64,000 nucleotides of DNA. It comes from Rhodospirillaceae bacterium SYSU D60007 (GTDB lineage Bacteria; Pseudomonadota; Alphaproteobacteria; Reyranellales; Reyranellaceae). The stretch covers positions 1-64,000 of the forward strand of contig QOCQ01000026.1 in NCBI GenBank assembly GCA_003574685.1, written 5' to 3'. The position numbers and the translations under genes are program-made. The notes beneath the pieces were generated by a model. That model had not been told where the DNA came from. It saw only the letters and a list, made by a program, of their open reading frames with translations, and did no database searches. This document shows positions 11,760 through 27,083 of the stretch, piece after piece. Each line of letters begins with the position of its first letter. Within the stretch, counting starts at the first letter, position 1.

Positions 11760-12869
11760 ATGAAGATCACCGATGTCACGCTGACGCTGTTTGCCTGGGA
11801 CAACATTCCCGCGACCACCTATGGCAGCCATACCGGCCGCTTCGGCGGCTCCAGCCAGCTCGGACTGCTACGTATCGTCACTGACCAGGGCATCGAGGGC
11901 CACGCCTTCCTCGGCTCGGCCATGAACCCGGCGACGACCGATGGTCAGGGCCTGATCACGCATCTCAAGCCGGCCTTGATGGGGCGCGATCCGCTGGCAC
12001 GCGAGCAGCTCAACCAGGACGTCTGGAAACGACAGCGCGCGGCGGGCGTGCGGCCCATCGGTGCGGTGGACGTGGCGCTGTGGGATCTTGCGGGCAAGGC
12101 GATCGGCCAGCCCATCCACCGGCTGCTGGGGACCTATCGCGAGAGCATTCCTGCCTACGCCAGCTCCGCCGTTCTCGCGTCGCCCGAGGCGTATGCCGAC
12201 GAGGCCGTCCGCTTCCGCGATTCCGGCTGGGCCGCCTACAAGATCCATCCGCCCACCCGCTGGCGCGACGACATCAAGGTGTGCCAGGCCGTGCGCAAGG
12301 CGGTGGGGGACGACTACACCATCATGCTCGATTCGACGTGGAGCTACGACTTCCCCGCAGCCGTGCGCGTCGGGCTCGCGGCACAGGAGCTCGGCTTCCA
12401 CTGGTACGAGGATCCGCTGGCTGACCAGGACATCTACAACTACGTCAAGCTGAAGCAGAAGCTCAGCATCCCGATCCTCGCCACCGAGTATCCGATCACC
12501 GGCTACGAGAGCTACGCGCCCTGGATCATGCTGCAGGCTACCGACTTCCTGCGCGGCGACGTGGCGGTCAAGGGCGGCATCACGACCCTGGTCAAGGCCG
12601 CGCATCTCGCCGAAGCGTTCCGCATGAACTTCGAGGTCCATCACGGCGGCAACTCGCTGAACAACGTCGCCAACCTCCACGTCATCGCCGCCATAAGGAA
12701 CACAGAGTTCTTCGAGGTGCTTCTGCCTGACGGTGCGCAGAAGTACGGCCTTGAGCAGGATATCGTGGTCGGCCGCGACGGGTTGGTGCATGTCCCCAAC
12801 GGCCCTGGACTTGGCGCGGCCATCGATTTCGATCTGATCAAGCGCAAGACCGTCGCGGTCCTCGCATGA
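11760..12869 (+). CDS. Mandelate racemase/muconate lactonizing enzyme family protein
   Basis: This 369-residue enolase-superfamily protein is distinct from its divergent neighbour. It shows VDVALWDLAGKAIGQPIHRLLG, then YKIHPPTRWRDDI (the catalytic-lysine strand), and the metal ligands in MLDSTWSYDF, YEDPLADQD and ATEYPITGYES, followed by the EVHHGGNSLNNVANLH strand with a histidine dyad partner. This arrangement is seen in racemase/dehydratase subgroups acting on sugar acids. The ATG follows GCGGAGGAGC. It is a single-gene unit between R1 and R2 repeats. Its substrate cannot be told. Confidence 0.8.
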   Translation: MKITDVTLTLFAWDNIPATTYGSHTGRFGGSSQLGLLRIVTDQGIEGHAFLGSAMNPATTDGQGLITHLKPALMGRDPLAREQLNQDVWKRQRAAGVRPIGAVDVALWDLAGKAIGQPIHRLLGTYRESIPAYASSAVLASPEAYADEAVRFRDSGWAAYKIHPPTRWRDDIKVCQAVRKAVGDDYTIMLDSTWSYDFPAAVRVGLAAQELGFHWYEDPLADQDIYNYVKLKQKLSIPILATEYPITGYESYAPWIMLQATDFLRGDVAVKGGITTLVKAAHLAEAFRMNFEVHHGGNSLNNVANLHVIAAIRNTEFFEVLLPDGAQKYGLEQDIVVGRDGLVHVPNGPGLGAAIDFDLIKRKTVAVLA

Positions 12870-12907
12870 CCCGGCTCTCCGCTGAGCGACGTTCGGCGGT
12901 AGAAAGT

Positions 12908-12994
12908 CGCTTCATGGTGAGCTTGTCGAACCATGAAGCGGTCCGCACTGCCGTGGTGCGACGCCTTCATGGTTCGACAGGCTCACCATGAAGG
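12908..12994. repeat. Family R2 double-hairpin repeat
   Basis: Two hairpins, 12908-12940 (CGCTTCATGGTGAGCTTG..CCATGAAGCG) and about 12964-12994 (CCTTCATGGTTCGACAGG..CCATGAAGG), are separated by about 23 bases. The layout is the standard R2 one. It follows the enolase-superfamily gene and precedes a luciferase-like gene of the same direction, so it may act as the terminator between them. Confidence 0.8.
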
Positions 12995-13084
12995 CTATTT
13001 CAGCTCTGCGTCTCACCCGCATGTTTCAACAGAGACAGCCGGGTAGTCATGTTCCCGAATGCCGTTCAGAAACCGGAGGATCGT

Positions 13085-13993
13085 GTGGCCTCGCAGCTTC
13101 CCGCCTTGTGCATTATCGCCACGCCCGGCCGCCGGCGCGCCATGATCGACATGGCACGTGAGGCGGAGCGCCGCGGTTATCAGGGCATCTACGTGCCCAG
13201 CCGCTTCAGCAACATGTCGGTCTGCGAAGCGCTCGCCTGGAATACCGAACGGATCGTGTTCGGCACCGCCATCGCGCCGATCTATGCCCGCACCGCTGCG
13301 GATTACGCCGAAGCCACCGCCTTCATGCACGAAATCTCGGGCGGCCGTTTCCGTTTCGGAATTGGTGTTGCCCATGCGCCGGGCCACGCGCGCCACGGTG
13401 TGAGCGTCGGCAAGCCGCTGGCCGACACCCGCGCTTTCGTTGAGAAGTTCCGTGCCCAGGAACAGGGGCCGCAGCCCCCGGTCATCATCGCCGCGCTGCG
13501 GCAGAAGATGGTGGCGCTGGCGGGTGACATCGGCGACGGCGTGGTGTTCGCGAATGCCTGCCGATCGGCGATGCAGAAATCGCTGGCGCATCTGCCCGAG
13601 ACGCGCCGTCGCGACCCTGCATTCTTCATCGGCAACATGATCCCGACCTGCATCAGCGACGACATCGAGGCGGCCAAAGCCGTGAATCGCCGCACGCTCA
13701 GCAGCTATCTCCAGCTCCCCAACTATCGCAACTACTGGAAGGAGTGCGGCTACATCGAGGAGATGGCCGCCATCGAACGCGCGATCACCGAACGGCGTCT
13801 GGACGATCTGCCGAAGCTGATGAGCGACAAATGGCTGGCGGATGTCACCCTCTTTGGTTCCGCAGGCCGGGTACGCGAGGAGCTGGCGGCCTGGTCCGAG
13901 GCGGGCGTGCGCACGCCCATCATCGTTGCCTCATCGGCGAGCGGCCGGCAGGCGCGGGCCATCCAGGAGGTCTTTGACGCTTTCGCAGGCTGA
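13085..13993 (+). CDS. Luciferase-like (LLM class) flavin or F420-dependent oxidoreductase
   Basis: This protein of about 302 residues belongs to the luciferase superfamily. It starts with the first barrel strand PALCIIATPGRRRAM, then YQGIYVPSRFSNMS, RIVFGTAIAPIYARTA, and the glycine turn SGGRFRFGIGVAHAPGHARHGV. Whether it uses FMN or F420 cannot be read, though the short size is like F420-type members. I prefer the GTG at 13085 because GGAGGA lies four bases upstream; an ATG at 13049 would add 12 residues without a ribosome site. The TauD-type gene follows 42 bases downstream and may be cotranscribed. Confidence 0.75.
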   Translation: MASQLPALCIIATPGRRRAMIDMAREAERRGYQGIYVPSRFSNMSVCEALAWNTERIVFGTAIAPIYARTAADYAEATAFMHEISGGRFRFGIGVAHAPGHARHGVSVGKPLADTRAFVEKFRAQEQGPQPPVIIAALRQKMVALAGDIGDGVVFANACRSAMQKSLAHLPETRRRDPAFFIGNMIPTCISDDIEAAKAVNRRTLSSYLQLPNYRNYWKECGYIEEMAAIERAITERRLDDLPKLMSDKWLADVTLFGSAGRVREELAAWSEAGVRTPIIVASSASGRQARAIQEVFDAFAG

Positions 13994-22510: not shown

Positions 22511-23581
22511 TCAGCGCCAGGGCTCGACAAGGATTTTGGTGTGGCGTTCGGGATTGCCCAGCTCATCGAACGCCGCCTTCACGCCGTCCACGCCTACCTT
22601 GCCGGTGATCAGCGCGCCGGCATCCACATCGCCTTCGGCGATCAGGCGCAGCGCCCGTGCGAACTCTTCGGGCGTATAGCCCAGCACGAACTGTACGTTC
22701 AGTTCCTTGCTGATACCGAACATCGGCTCGATCCGGTCGGCTTCCATGCAGACGCCGACCACCACGATGCGGGCTCCTCGCGGGACAGCCCCGAAGATCT
22801 GCTGCAGCATGCCGGGCACGCCCACGCACTCGAAGACGAGTGCCCGTTTGCCCGCGGGTGCGCCACCCATGAGCGAACCCGCGGAGTCATCGAAACCTCC
22901 GCGATCCGCCCAGGCGCGGTACGCCGACACCTCGGCCGGATTGACCACCTCATCGGCGCCCATCTGGGCCGCCAGCCGCCGGCGGGCAGGCGAAAAGTCG
23001 GCGGCGATGATGGGACCGAGCCCCTTTAGCCGCAGCGCCGCGACCACGGCCAGTCCGACCGGGCCGCAGCCAACGACCAGCGGCACTTCTTCACCCGTGA
23101 CGTTCGCCTTCTCGACGGCGTGGATGCCGACGGCCAGCGGTTCGGTGAGCGCTGCATGCTCCGCGGCCAGCCCGTTCGGGACCTCGACCAGCAGGGATTC
23201 GCACAGCACCATGCGTTCGGCAAAGCCGCCAGGGTAGTCGTTGGAATAGCCGACGGTGCGCGGCCCCTGCGCCGTCGGCACCACGGGGACAGAGCACACC
23301 CGGGCACCCGGCCTCAGGCGGCGTTCGGTATCGGGTCCAAAGTCAAGGAGCTCGGCGCAGAACTCGTGACCGAAGACGATGTCGCGCGACAGGTCCATGG
23401 GCTGCCGCCCGCCGATACGCCGCGTGACTTCAACCATGTGCGGGCCGTGCTTGTGGGCATGCAGATCCGAGCCGCAGATGCCGCAGGCCAGCGTTTTCAC
23501 AAGAACCTGCCCGGAAGCCGGCACCGGATCCGGCAGCGTATCCACCACCAGATCACCTTGCCTGAGTATCGCCGCGCGCAT
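22511..23581 (-). CDS. Zinc-binding alcohol dehydrogenase family protein (MDR)
   Basis: This 356-residue medium-chain dehydrogenase/reductase keeps the catalytic zinc motifs CGICGSDLHAHKHG (residue 34 on) and GHEFCAEL near 70, and has the Rossmann segment PLVVGCGPVGLAVVAALRLKG near 165. The four-cysteine loop that binds the structural zinc is absent: after GARVCSVPVV the sequence goes directly to GPRTVGYSND. It is probably an NAD-dependent alcohol or polyol dehydrogenase. AAGGACGAGG precedes the start. It converges with greB, with stops six bases apart, and is divergent from the acyl-carrier cassette. Confidence 0.8.
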   Translation of the reverse strand: MRAAILRQGDLVVDTLPDPVPASGQVLVKTLACGICGSDLHAHKHGPHMVEVTRRIGGRQPMDLSRDIVFGHEFCAELLDFGPDTERRLRPGARVCSVPVVPTAQGPRTVGYSNDYPGGFAERMVLCESLLVEVPNGLAAEHAALTEPLAVGIHAVEKANVTGEEVPLVVGCGPVGLAVVAALRLKGLGPIIAADFSPARRRLAAQMGADEVVNPAEVSAYRAWADRGGFDDSAGSLMGGAPAGKRALVFECVGVPGMLQQIFGAVPRGARIVVVGVCMEADRIEPMFGISKELNVQFVLGYTPEEFARALRLIAEGDVDAGALITGKVGVDGVKAAFDELGNPERHTKILVEPWR

Positions 23582-23756: not shown

Positions 23757-24017
23757 GTGACATCCGTGACCGATTCGATCCGGGAGGTTCTCCGGGAGGG
23801 TGGCGCGCTGCCGGTCGACATCGCGACGCTGGACGATGCCGACGACCTCTACGCCGCGGGACTGACGTCCCATGCGACGGTAAACCTCATGCTGGGTCTC
23901 GAGGAGAAGTTCGACATCGAGTTCCCCGACCATCTGTTGCGGCGCCGCACCTTCGAAAGCATCGCCAGCATCCGCGCCGCCATTACCGAATTGCTGGGCA
24001 ACGAAGTCGCGGCATGA
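23757..24017 (+). CDS. Acyl carrier protein of the aminoacyl-carrier cassette
   Basis: This 86-residue carrier protein has the phosphopantetheine site in LYAAGLTSHATVNLML (Ser38), and acidic helix II and III residues (LEEKFDIEFPDHLL). The attachment motif reads GLTS rather than the usual DSL found in fatty acid synthase ACP, as in dedicated carriers. I chose the GTG at 23757 because it gives the normal ACP length; an ATG at 23691 would add 22 residues. Its stop overlaps the start of the next gene (ATGA). It probably carries the amino acid loaded by the ligase at 25171. Confidence 0.85.
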   Translation: MTSVTDSIREVLREGGALPVDIATLDDADDLYAAGLTSHATVNLMLGLEEKFDIEFPDHLLRRRTFESIASIRAAITELLGNEVAA

Positions 24018-25174
24018 GCGAGTTGCTGCAGCGGGCGCGGCGGGTCGGCGCCGAGGTCGCTGCCAGGCACGCTGCGGCTGTCGATGCCGAGGCGCGCTTT
24101 CCGCACGAGGCTTTCGCCGCCCTGAAGGCCGAGAAGCTGCTGGGCGTGATGGTGCCCGCCGAGTTCGGCGGCGCGGGCGCATCCATCCCGGAGGTGCTGG
24201 CCCTGTGCCATGCGCTGGGGCAGTCCTGCGCCTCGACGGCGATGATTTTCGCCATGCACCAGATCCAGGTGGCCTGCATCGTGCGGCATGGCCAGCAGAG
24301 CGCCTGGCATCGTGCGCTGCTGCAACGCCTCGCCGGCGAGCAGATGCTACTTGCTTCGGCGACCTCCGAGGCGGGCGTCGGCGGCGACGTGCGCAGCAGC
24401 GTCTGCGCCGTGGAGGTCGAGGGTGAGCGCTTCAGCCTGAGCAAGAACGCCACCGTCATCTCCTACGGTGCCGATGCCGACGGCATCCTGGCGACGGCCC
24501 GGCGCACGCCGGAGTCCCCAGCTTCCGACCAGGTGATCGTCGTGGTTCTGAAGGACGGCTACCGGCTGGAGCAGACCTCGACCTGGGACACGCTGGGCAT
24601 GCGTGGCACCTGCAGCAATGGATACTGGCTGCACGCCGAAGGCGATGCGCGGCAGATCCTGCCGCTGCCCTACGCCGACATCTCGGCGCAGACCATGCTG
24701 CCGACCTCGCATCTGACGTGGAGCAGTCTCTGGCTGGGCATCGCCACGGATGCCGTATCGCGCGCCCGCGCTTTCGTACGGGCCGAAGCGCGCCGCAAGG
24801 CCGGCACCGTGCCGGCCGGGGCGCTGCGCCTGGCCGAGGCCGTGAACCTGCTGCAGCTCATGCGCTCGAACGTGGTGGCCGCCGCGCGGCAATACGAGGC
24901 TGCGCTGGGCTCGGCCGAGCGCCTGACCGCGCTGTCCTTCGCCGTGGCGATGAACAACCTCAAGACCGGCACCTCGCAGATGGCGGTCCAGGTGGTGAAC
25001 CACGCCCTGCTGATCTGCGGCATCGCCGGCTACCGCAACGATTCGGATTTCAGCGTCTGCCGTCATCTGCGCGACGCGCATTCCGCCGCCCTGATGGTCA
25101 ACAACGACCGCATCCTCGCCAACACGGCGAACCTGCTGCTGGTCCTTAAGGACGACCCGGGGCTGTTCCCGTGA
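24014..25174 (+). CDS. Acyl-CoA dehydrogenase-fold enzyme of the aminoacyl-carrier cassette
   Basis: This 386-residue protein keeps the acyl-CoA dehydrogenase fold: [21 protein letters not shown] near residue 40, [16 protein letters not shown] near 120, and [11 protein letters not shown] near 195. The C-terminal region reads [33 protein letters not shown], so the YEGT-type motif with the catalytic Glu is replaced by MVNND. It therefore may not be a classical alpha,beta-dehydrogenase, and oxidation or hydroxylation of a carrier-bound aminoacyl group is an alternative. It is coupled to the carrier gene upstream (ATGA) and to the ligase downstream (GTGA), so the three are made together. Confidence 0.8.
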
Positions 25175-26100
25175 ACGCCCACGCCGAGCTAGGCCAGGCC
25201 CAGGCCGCCTTTCGCGACGCGCTGATCGCGCACGGGCTGCTGATCCCGATGGGGGTCGACGGGCTCTACGGGCGCAGCGGTACCTTCGAGGAGGTGATCG
25301 AGCGGTTCAACGCGCTGGTCACGCGCCATGGCGGCCATGAAGGCGCCGAGATCATGCGCTTCCCGCCCTCCATCAGCCGGCAGGTCTTCGAGGAAAGCGG
25401 CTATCTCAAGAGCTTCCCGCAGCTCGCGGGCACCGTGCACAGCTTCATGGGCAACGACCGGGACCACCAGGCGCTGATCGAGAAGCTGCTGGCGAAAGAG
25501 GACTGGACCGCGGGCCAGAAGGCAACGCAGGTGGTGCTGACGCCGGCGGCCTGCTACCCGCTCTACCCTGTCGTGGCGGCGCGGGGACCGCTGCCCGCCG
25601 AGGGCGCGCTGCTCGATGTCTATTCCTGGTGCTTCCGCCATGAACCCTCGATCGACCCGGCGCGCATGCAGCAATTCCGCCAGCGCGAGTACGTGCGCAT
25701 CGGCACCGCCGCGCAGGTGATGGCCTTCCGCCAGCTCTGGATCGACCGCGGCACGGCGATCATGTCATCGCTGGGCATTCCCCTGCACGTCGATGTCGCC
25801 AACGATCCGTTCTTCGGCCGGGCGGGCCGCATGCTGGCCGCCAACCAGCGCGACCAGACGCTGAAGTTCGAGCTGCTGGTGCCGATCACCAGCAGCGAAA
25901 AGCCGACCGCCTGTCTCAGCTTCAACTATCACCAGGATCATTTCGGCCATGCCTGGGGGCTGCGCACGCATGACGGCGGCACCGCGCACACGGCCTGCGT
26001 CGGCTTCGGGGTGGAGCGCATCGCGCTGGCCCTTTTCAGGCACCACGGCCTCGACGTGAAGGCCTGGCCGCAGGCCGTGCGCGACCAGCTCTGGGGCTGA
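25171..26100 (+). CDS. Amino acid:[carrier protein] ligase, SerRS-like
   Basis: This 309-residue class II aminoacyl-tRNA-synthetase-like catalytic core has no tRNA-binding domain. The zinc site typical of the atypical-SerRS group is present: Cys128 (AACYPLYP), Glu173 (RQREYVRIG, which is also motif 2) and Cys276 (HTACVGFG). Motif 3 is [12 protein letters not shown]. Bradyrhizobium and Agrobacterium homologues are known to activate glycine or alanine and load it onto a carrier protein instead of tRNA. The overlap GTGA with the upstream gene, and the nearby ACP and DUF1839 genes, support this role. It should not be called seryl-tRNA synthetase. Confidence 0.88.
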
Positions 26101-26102
26101 CC

Positions 26103-27083
26103 ATGAGCGGCGTGCGCCTGCTGGCGATCGACCCCGCCACGTATCGCCCGCACGCGCTGCATGCGCCGGATCGCGTCTGGCTGGAAACGAATTGCTATGT
26201 CGACGTCTGGATCGAGGTGCTGCACGCCTTTGGCCTGGAGCCGCTGGCGGCGCTGGGCTTCACCGTCGGCCAGGACTTTGAAGGCGATCACTTCACCTTC
26301 TTCAAGTTCCCGCCCGAAGACCTGCGCGCCCTGTTCGGCCTGTCGGTGCAGGAGCTGGCGATCTACGACACGGTCGAAGGCCACGCGCTGGAGCAGCTCC
26401 GCCGCGGCCGCCTGCCGCTGGTCGAGGTCGACAGCTACTACCTGCCCGATACGCGCGGCACCGCCTATCGGCGGGCCCATGTGAAATCCACCATCGGGAT
26501 CGCCGCCCTCGATATCGATGCGCGCCGTATGGGTTATTTTCACAATACCGGGTACCATGCCGTCGAGGGCGAAGATTTCGACGGCCTCTTTCGCCGCCTG
26601 CCGGCACAGCAGGATCAGCCTGACGTGCTGTTTCCCTATGTCGAATTCGTCAAGCGTGATGGCCGTACGCTCGAAGGAAACGCCCTTCTTTCCGCTGCGC
26701 TGGCGCTGCTGAAGGATCACCTCGCGCGGCGGCCTGCCGGAGCCTTCGCGAGGTTCCGTGCCGATTTCCCCCGGCATCTCGAAATGCTGGCAGCACGCTC
26801 GCTCGACTATTTCCATCTCTATGCCTTCAACGTGCTGCGCCAGCTTGGCGCCAATTTCGAGCTTCTCGGCAGCCATATCCGGTGGCTCGGCAGCCACGGC
26901 GAAAGCGGTCTGGAAGGTGCGGCGGAAGGCTGCCTGCTGGTGGCGGAAGGTGCCAAGGCGCTGCAGTTCCAGCTGGCCCGCGCGGTGAACCGCAAGAAAT
27001 TTGGCGACTATGGCCCGGCGCTCGACGAGCTGGAGCGCGCCCACGATCTCGTGCTCAAAACGCTCGCCCGCCGCTACGGCTGA
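26103..27083 (+). CDS. DUF1839 family protein, probable BtrH-like acyltransferase
   Basis: This 326-residue protein is of the DUF1839 family, which usually accompanies amino acid:carrier ligases. The N-terminal half has a papain-like layout: Cys31 in LETNCYVDVWIEVLHA, Asp110 in PLVEVDSYYLPDT, and His126 in YRRAHVKSTIGI, followed by YFHNTGYHAVEG. This resembles the BtrH N-terminal domain that moves an acyl group from a carrier protein to an acceptor in butirosin synthesis. The second half is helical and of unknown role. It starts two bases after the ligase stop. The acceptor of a transferred aminoacyl group is unknown. Confidence 0.75.
   Translation: MSGVRLLAIDPATYRPHALHAPDRVWLETNCYVDVWIEVLHAFGLEPLAALGFTVGQDFEGDHFTFFKFPPEDLRALFGLSVQELAIYDTVEGHALEQLRRGRLPLVEVDSYYLPDTRGTAYRRAHVKSTIGIAALDIDARRMGYFHNTGYHAVEGEDFDGLFRRLPAQQDQPDVLFPYVEFVKRDGRTLEGNALLSAALALLKDHLARRPAGAFARFRADFPRHLEMLAARSLDYFHLYAFNVLRQLGANFELLGSHIRWLGSHGESGLEGAAEGCLLVAEGAKALQFQLARAVNRKKFGDYGPALDELERAHDLVLKTLARRYG

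Follow-up and report, generated by a model that had tools for sequence, protein, structure and literature searches.

A carrier-protein aminoacylation cassette with a DUF1839 protein in a Reyranellaceae genome and its predicted role in the modification of surface sugars

The stretch of DNA analysed in this study (the window) comprises 64,000 nucleotides of contig QOCQ01000026.1 of Rhodospirillaceae bacterium SYSU D60007 and harbors four coupled genes (23757-27083, all on the + strand), which encode a dedicated aminoacyl carrier protein (ACP), a flavoenzyme of the acyl-CoA dehydrogenase (ACAD) fold, an amino acid:[carrier protein] ligase and a DUF1839 protein. On balance, these four proteins appear to carry out loading, oxidation and transfer within a cytosolic system by which an acyl group derived from an amino acid is attached to an amino sugar, which would most likely be a building block or a lipid-linked unit of an exopolysaccharide. 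The same scheme was predicted in 2010 in a note in proof (PMC2922099, in the passage concerned), so that the best explanation given here supports that prediction and is not a new idea. The support is by other means, namely fold, census and positional statistics. The cassette in the window is a new, split member of the predicted system, and the prediction is untested as far as the literature searches show. New are the match of the DUF1839 fold to CcbD, a census of six genes and the finding of a flavoenzyme without the usual catalytic bases.

The coupling described in the initial annotation, which was made from the sequence alone, was borne out: the ACP and flavoenzyme genes share an ATGA overlap, the flavoenzyme and ligase genes a GTGA overlap, and the ligase and DUF1839 genes are separated by 2 bases. 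Conservation of the cassette was surveyed in 398 genomes drawn from the proteobacterial phylum and in a set of 97 loci, consisting of the window, 16 loci taken from the whole genomes and, out of at least 562 confirmed named loci, the best 80. The 97 loci are not independent; L036 (genome G249) and L131, which are equal in length, are apparently one and the same contig. DUF1839 was found in 16 of the 398 genomes and adjoins the ligase gene in all 16, therefore a chance gene order is excluded. The expectation that the four genes are conserved together thus held for the adjacency of ligase and DUF1839; the real unit comprises five to six genes, including a GH2 glycosidase, and is split in the window's genome. 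ACP, flavoenzyme, ligase, DUF1839 and GH2 were all called in 83 of the 97 loci, with median intergenic gaps of -4 between ACP and flavoenzyme (88 pairs), -4 between ligase and DUF1839 (95 pairs) and 30 between DUF1839 and GH2 (88 pairs). The ligase scored above cut-off in 28 genomes, among them all 16 with DUF1839, and at E 0.001 or better in 44. In each of the 28 (the window and L030-L056) the flavoenzyme gene adjoins the ligase gene; no flavoenzyme relative was detected by tblastn in seven loci (L057-L063) from the 16 genomes with only below-cut-off ligases. Since 12 genomes retain ligase and flavoenzyme without DUF1839 and with different neighbours, the pair is the core of the system and DUF1839 one of several endings. 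In Caballeronia sordidicola S170 (L139), the cassette is decaying: flavoenzyme and GH2 are present as fragments, the DUF1839 frame is open, and neither ligase nor carrier was found by tblastn in the locus.

A function of the DUF1839 protein is suggested by its predicted fold. With the AlphaFold2 model (mean pLDDT 89.8, pTM 0.89), 15 Foldseek matches were obtained at E 0.001 or better (4e-7 to 8e-4), all of them AziU2-U3, CtaG or CcbD and with AziU2/U3 at the top (4e-7). VIA-align, with which the Foldseek matches were re-examined, gave Z 20.5 for CcbD (7yn1; rmsd 3.4, 286 of 326 residues), 18.3 for CtaG and 18.0 for AziU2/U3; the next match was an unrelated designed protein at Z 8.3. No convincing sequence relative was found in the PDB, where the single query reached E 0.015 (a phosphatase) and the profile E 0.22 (a cysteine protease, 43 positions). 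Of 98 family members, 96 have Cys31 (93 aligned and three mis-started proteins whose loci encode the Cys), all have His147, and 97 have Thr or Ser at position 129. The three residues are presumed, from the alignment made here, to be the C(T/S)H triad given for DUF1839 in PMC10318531 (in the relevant part), where it was classed as papain-like in 2023. CcbD joins carrier-bound proline to the amino group of a thiooctose as an amide in a Cys-His-Glu ping-pong mechanism, according to the part of PMC12945683 dealing with it, and its acceptor is called an amino sugar in a passage of PMC4351081. DUF1839 and CcbD/LmbD have in common the fold over 286 residues, a carrier-bound amino acid as presumed donor and a catalytic Cys near the N-terminus. 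They differ in that identity is only 10-12% and that His and Ser/Thr of DUF1839 are, in the sequence alignment, apparently in swapped places compared to the canonical Cys-His-acid order of which the CcbD triad is an example. From fold, conserved residues and context, DUF1839 would likely take the acyl group onto Cys31 and, like CcbD, join it to an amine in an amide bond. The earlier proposal that DUF1839 is the transferring enzyme is therefore supported by the CcbD fold. DUF1839 pairs are encoded in G328 and G255, presumably Burkholderiaceae (L030:7400-8380 and 12231-13196; L044:10434-11420 with L029:88-1125), and judging from their residues are possible enzyme/pseudoenzyme pairs.

For the loading step, a relative of known structure is the Bradyrhizobium amino acid:[carrier protein] ligase, with which residues 19-307 of the cassette ligase align (4h2w, E 8e-100; 3mey, E 1e-96). 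The carrier Ser (Ser38), the Cys-Glu-Cys residues and the class II motifs pointed out before were all seen: C128, E173 and C276 are identical to those of 4h2w and 3mey and fit a zinc site, whose ligands we take them to be; motif 2 reads FRHE and motif 3 GFGVER. The protein of 309 amino acids has no tRNA-binding domain, in keeping with membership of PRK07080. The Bradyrhizobium enzyme loads glycine, and its carrier belongs to the same family as the ACP of the cassette, whose nearest solved relatives are 4h2w_C and Agrobacterium Atu2571 (2jq4). Loading of Gly or Ala on a carrier by ligase relatives is described in the relevant part of PMC9437257. By analogy to this established reaction, the cassette ligase would very probably adenylate a small amino acid (Gly or Ala) and load it onto the phosphopantetheine of the ACP. 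In Bradyrhizobium, the ligase bll0957 has an acyl-CoA dehydrogenase gene at the next locus number (bll0958), according to the entries given in PMC10888616. Six Bradyrhizobium-like loci (family f8, genus assigned by inference) differ from the cassette, since they lack DUF1839 and have a protein of about 291 amino acids after the ligase instead (L046:11040-11915, with equivalents in L048, L050, L054, L055 and L056). The L046 copy had no Pfam, NCBIfam or PDB chain match; the protein is a candidate alternative transferase or acceptor.

The flavoenzyme shows the Acyl-CoA_dh_N and Acyl-CoA_dh_1 domains above the Pfam cut-off and the middle domain below it. For its AlphaFold2 model (pLDDT 92), the 50 structural matches listed lie between Z 43.1 and 39.7, comprising acyl-CoA dehydrogenases, ColB1 and flavin monooxygenases such as DszC. 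Because dehydrogenases, ColB1 and monooxygenases match at close Z, the fold does not decide the chemistry. In a profile search, the best match was cyclohexene-carboxyl-CoA dehydrogenase (7p98, E 3e-27), followed, among others, by amino-sugar N-oxygenases (DnmZ, a nitrososynthase; E ~1e-20) and by prolyl-ACP dehydrogenase (4irn, E 1e-14). At the presumed MCAD-type position of the catalytic Glu, the window's enzyme has V362 (Ile/Val in 92 of 92 letters of the family alignment) and at the presumed IVD-type position S232 (Ser/Thr/Ala in at least 91 of 93). With both usual Glu residues absent, the protein is not an ordinary acyl-CoA dehydrogenase, and a role as beta-oxidation dehydrogenase is thereby ruled out. 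The conserved residues His82 (90 of 90 letters) and His233 (93 of 93) could serve in place of the missing Glu. Oxidation on the carrier is plausible. ColB1 (7xp7, Z 42.1) and the prolyl-ACP dehydrogenase are oxidases of carrier-bound amino acids and have the ACAD fold and the presumed carrier-bound aminoacyl substrate in common with the flavoenzyme; the absence of both usual Glu bases may set the cassette enzyme apart from them. The flavoenzyme would probably oxidize the aminoacyl group loaded on the ACP. If glycine is loaded, which has no beta-carbon, the oxidation must take place at C-alpha or N and yield an imine/2-oxo or an N-hydroxy product. A tentative extension is that glycine is oxidized on the carrier by the base-less flavoenzyme and that the CcbD-type enzyme might install an unusual acyl amide on exopolysaccharide amino sugars in soil Alpha- and Betaproteobacteria.

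The earlier four-gene picture stood as far as the four genes are concerned and was incomplete, as a GH2 glycosidase and a fused hydrolase pair lie outside the window. The 16 DUF1839 genomes, and only these, were found to have a GH2 orthologue (at least 1239 bits); in the remaining 382 no score exceeded 222 bits, and five of them gave only general matches (178-222 bits). The hydrolase pair is present in all 16 and in one other genome (G322) of the 382. The best two candidates per genome were scored for GH2 and the best three for the hydrolase. As the query sets included 14 (GH2) and 9 (hydrolase) of the 16 genomes, presence in these is true by construction, and the informative parts of the census are the absence elsewhere, the GH2 of G000 and G107 and the hydrolase pair of the seven genomes outside the query set. 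GH2 follows DUF1839 in 15 of the 16 genomes. The exception is the window's genome, in which GH2 (1271 bits) is located on contig C12, with the fused hydrolase pair after it and OpgC-like and SGNH genes before it; the Reyranella and Vineibacter genomes have the same layout, with GH2 and cassette on different contigs. Among the 97 loci, GH2 was called in 89. Besides the window, it is lacking in L064 and L065, in L071, L079 and L086, where the contig ends within about 1.2 kb past DUF1839, in L029, which holds a second DUF1839 copy, and in L139, where it is fragmented.

In the two members tested, the hydrolase pair is a single chain resembling the exosortase-A-associated hydrolases 2 and 1, with scores under the cut-offs of these families. 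All 14 aligned GH2 proteins share E417 and E498 (L031 numbering), which fit the catalytic positions of the family and are presumed to be the catalytic residues. An identity as exo-glucosaminidase was considered and is unsupported, the best-scoring solved enzymes being beta-mannosidases. GH2 and hydrolase pair might trim, transglycosylate or edit the acylated sugar, a role suggested with some hesitation. The OpgC-like acyltransferase (416 bits) and the SGNH/NonGDSL protein upstream of GH2 in the window's genome (L145:18142-19380, L144:233-1000) have counterparts in L150 as domains of a single chain. L031:14387-17698 encodes a protein of 1103 amino acids in which a Polysacc_synt_3 flippase domain is fused to the hydrolase pair, as shown by a domain search with the L031 protein, and L033:1956-5267 a homologue of the same length; both genomes are of one genus.

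The polysaccharide context was assessed by locating Wzz (PF02706) and Bac_transf (PF02397) genes in the 16 DUF1839 genomes, with a distance limit of 15 kb. The cassette lies within this distance in seven genomes (G262, G307, G382, G249, G255, G324 and G328; expected 0.55, P ~4e-7) and the hydrolase gene in eight (expected 0.53, P ~1e-8), including G191 and G107, two genomes in which cassette and hydrolase gene are not linked. The P. xenovorans locus (L112) contains genes for an undecaprenyl-phosphate glucose phosphotransferase (512 bits) and a Wzc-like polysaccharide autokinase (TIGR01007), each scoring above its cut-off. In a crude hydropathy scan, a hydrophobic N-terminal stretch was seen in only 2 of 89 GH2 proteins and in none of the ACP, flavoenzyme, ligase and DUF1839 proteins, so the proteins probably work in the cytosol. 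Gene context and precedent suggest, with about an even chance, that an amino sugar on its way into a surface polysaccharide serves as acceptor.

Several observations weigh against a transfer to exopolysaccharide amino sugars. Four of the seven cassettes near Wzz or Bac_transf belong to one family (f66), therefore the P values overstate independence and the true significance is lower, and seven of the 16 genomes, that of the window among them, have these markers within 15 kb of neither the cassette nor the hydrolase gene. The flanks, in which conserved acceptor candidates had been hoped for, did not provide them: an acceptor-making gene conserved beside the cassette everywhere was not found, and beyond the five cassette genes no family occurs in more than 51 of the 97 loci. 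In an alignment of GH2 with the beta-mannosidase 5n6u, E498 faces Glu and E417 faces Cys. The operon copies of DUF1839 in G328 and G255 lack Cys31, although both genomes also encode a second DUF1839 protein that retains it. The chemistry of DUF1839 may differ from that of CcbD, as its His apparently occupies another position, and since AziU2/U3, an enzyme of azinomycin aziridine biosynthesis, shares the fold, the fold alone is no proof of transfer. The literature searches yielded no biochemistry on the flavoenzyme or DUF1839.

Three alternatives have to be considered. The system could make a small diffusible aminoacyl-sugar metabolite, similar to a lincosamide, instead of decorating a polysaccharide. 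CcbD, CtaG and AziU, the closest folds, all come from small-molecule pathways, the probably cytosolic work of the proteins agrees with such a product, and no Wzz or Bac_transf gene is found near the window's cassette. Opposed to this are the exopolysaccharide neighbours in seven of the 16 genomes together with the flippase-hydrolase fusion, the gene for an OpgC-like acyltransferase next to GH2 in the genome of the window and the absence of an exporter among the families in more than 51 of the 97 loci (rarer families were not all identified), which make a diffusible product unlikely. It is rather improbable that DUF1839 acts on the carrier-bound acyl chain itself, by rearrangement or hydrolysis as AziU might, and leaves the transfer to another protein: the cassette has no second conserved transferase family, and the AziU pathway presumably has a different acyl group, even if AziU2/U3 is the top Foldseek match, lies within 2.5 Z of CcbD and the order of the DUF1839 triad seems unlike that of CcbD. 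An acyl-CoA-dependent processing of glycans at the cell wall, suggested for DUF1839 from genomic context in the part of PMC10318531 concerned, is highly improbable in view of the dedicated ACP and ligase adjacent to DUF1839, the carrier-dependent enzymes among its best fold matches and the lack of a hydrophobic segment in 98 of 98 DUF1839 proteins (hydropathy scan).

The preferred reading, transfer of an amino-acid-derived acyl group to a surface sugar, agrees with the 2010 note in proof of Aravind, de Souza and Iyer (PMC2922099). In its passage on the neighbourhood, Atu2574 (DUF1839) was predicted to amidate a cell-surface sugar amine with the carried amino acid and the redox enzyme to modify the aminoacyl group, probably by monooxygenation; glycosidase and liposaccharide genes are mentioned as well. 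The description of product and role as undescribed therefore has to be withdrawn; part of PMC10318531 also classes DUF1839 among papain-like proteins. The neighbourhood of that passage and the cassette are alike in their components (ligase, ACP, redox enzyme, Atu2574 and glycosidase) and in the roles predicted for DUF1839 and redox enzyme. They differ in that the glycosidase is unlinked in the window's clade and that the redox enzyme is called a Rossmann-fold protein there, in contrast to the ACAD fold of the cassette flavoenzyme; no fold is given for Atu2574 in the passage. In the literature searched, DUF1839 was named in one paper only, and nothing usable was obtained on decorated polysaccharides or on a cluster already described. 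When bacterial amino acid:[carrier protein] ligases were described in 2010, their purpose was left open, and the literature found does not settle it; the co-occurrence of six genes, the CcbD-type transferase fold and the exopolysaccharide context make it concretely testable. If the proposed transfer is true, an aminoacyl or oxidized aminoacyl amide joins the chemistry of bacterial surface sugars, and if glycine is oxidized as outlined above, polysaccharides would be decorated by a chemistry undescribed in the literature found.

The features of the cassette are listed in Table 1. The ACP start at 23757 gives a protein of the same length as those called in L064 and L065; the start of another gene caller is 23766. 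The closest named cassettes among the matches listed are those of Reyranella sp. CPCC 100927 and Vineibacter terrae (DUF1839 identity 81-83%).

Table 1. Coordinates of the cassette features in the window
Feature	Coordinates	Strand	Length	Evidence
Dedicated aminoacyl carrier protein (ACP), GTG start	23757..24017	+	86 amino acids	NF005480/PRK07081, 109 bits (cut-off 72)
Putative phosphopantetheine site, codon of carrier Ser38 (GLTS)	23868..23870	+		PF00550 match
ACAD-fold flavoenzyme without both canonical catalytic Glu	24014..25174	+	386 amino acids	Pfam domains and AlphaFold2 model
Amino acid:[carrier protein] ligase, class II aminoacyl-tRNA synthetase paralogue	25171..26100	+	309 amino acids	NF005479/PRK07080, 516 bits (cut-off 357)
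DUF1839 protein, predicted CcbD-like aminoacyl transferase	26103..27083	+	326 amino acids	PF08893, 432 bits (gathering cut-off 22.5)
Putative nucleophile, codon of DUF1839 Cys31	26193..26195	+		Cys conserved in 96/98 family members

The cassette is flanked by GreA-like and divergent zinc alcohol dehydrogenase genes on one side and by genes for a PpiC-type isomerase, ArgJ and a NUDIX protein on the other; none of these neighbours has an evident functional link to it. The zinc alcohol dehydrogenase (22511-23581, - strand) was rejected as a partner, since, of the 97 loci, only the window, L064 and L065 have its family beside the cassette. Upstream repeats and promoter or terminator patterns across the cassette were not found above chance in the window sequence. 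Near the carrier gene of L031 (4880-6990), EF-P, EpmA and EpmB-like genes (named by eye) are located, and the same families are present in L033, L035, L037 and L126; they look like another synthetase-paralogue aminoacylation system next to the cassette in these five loci.

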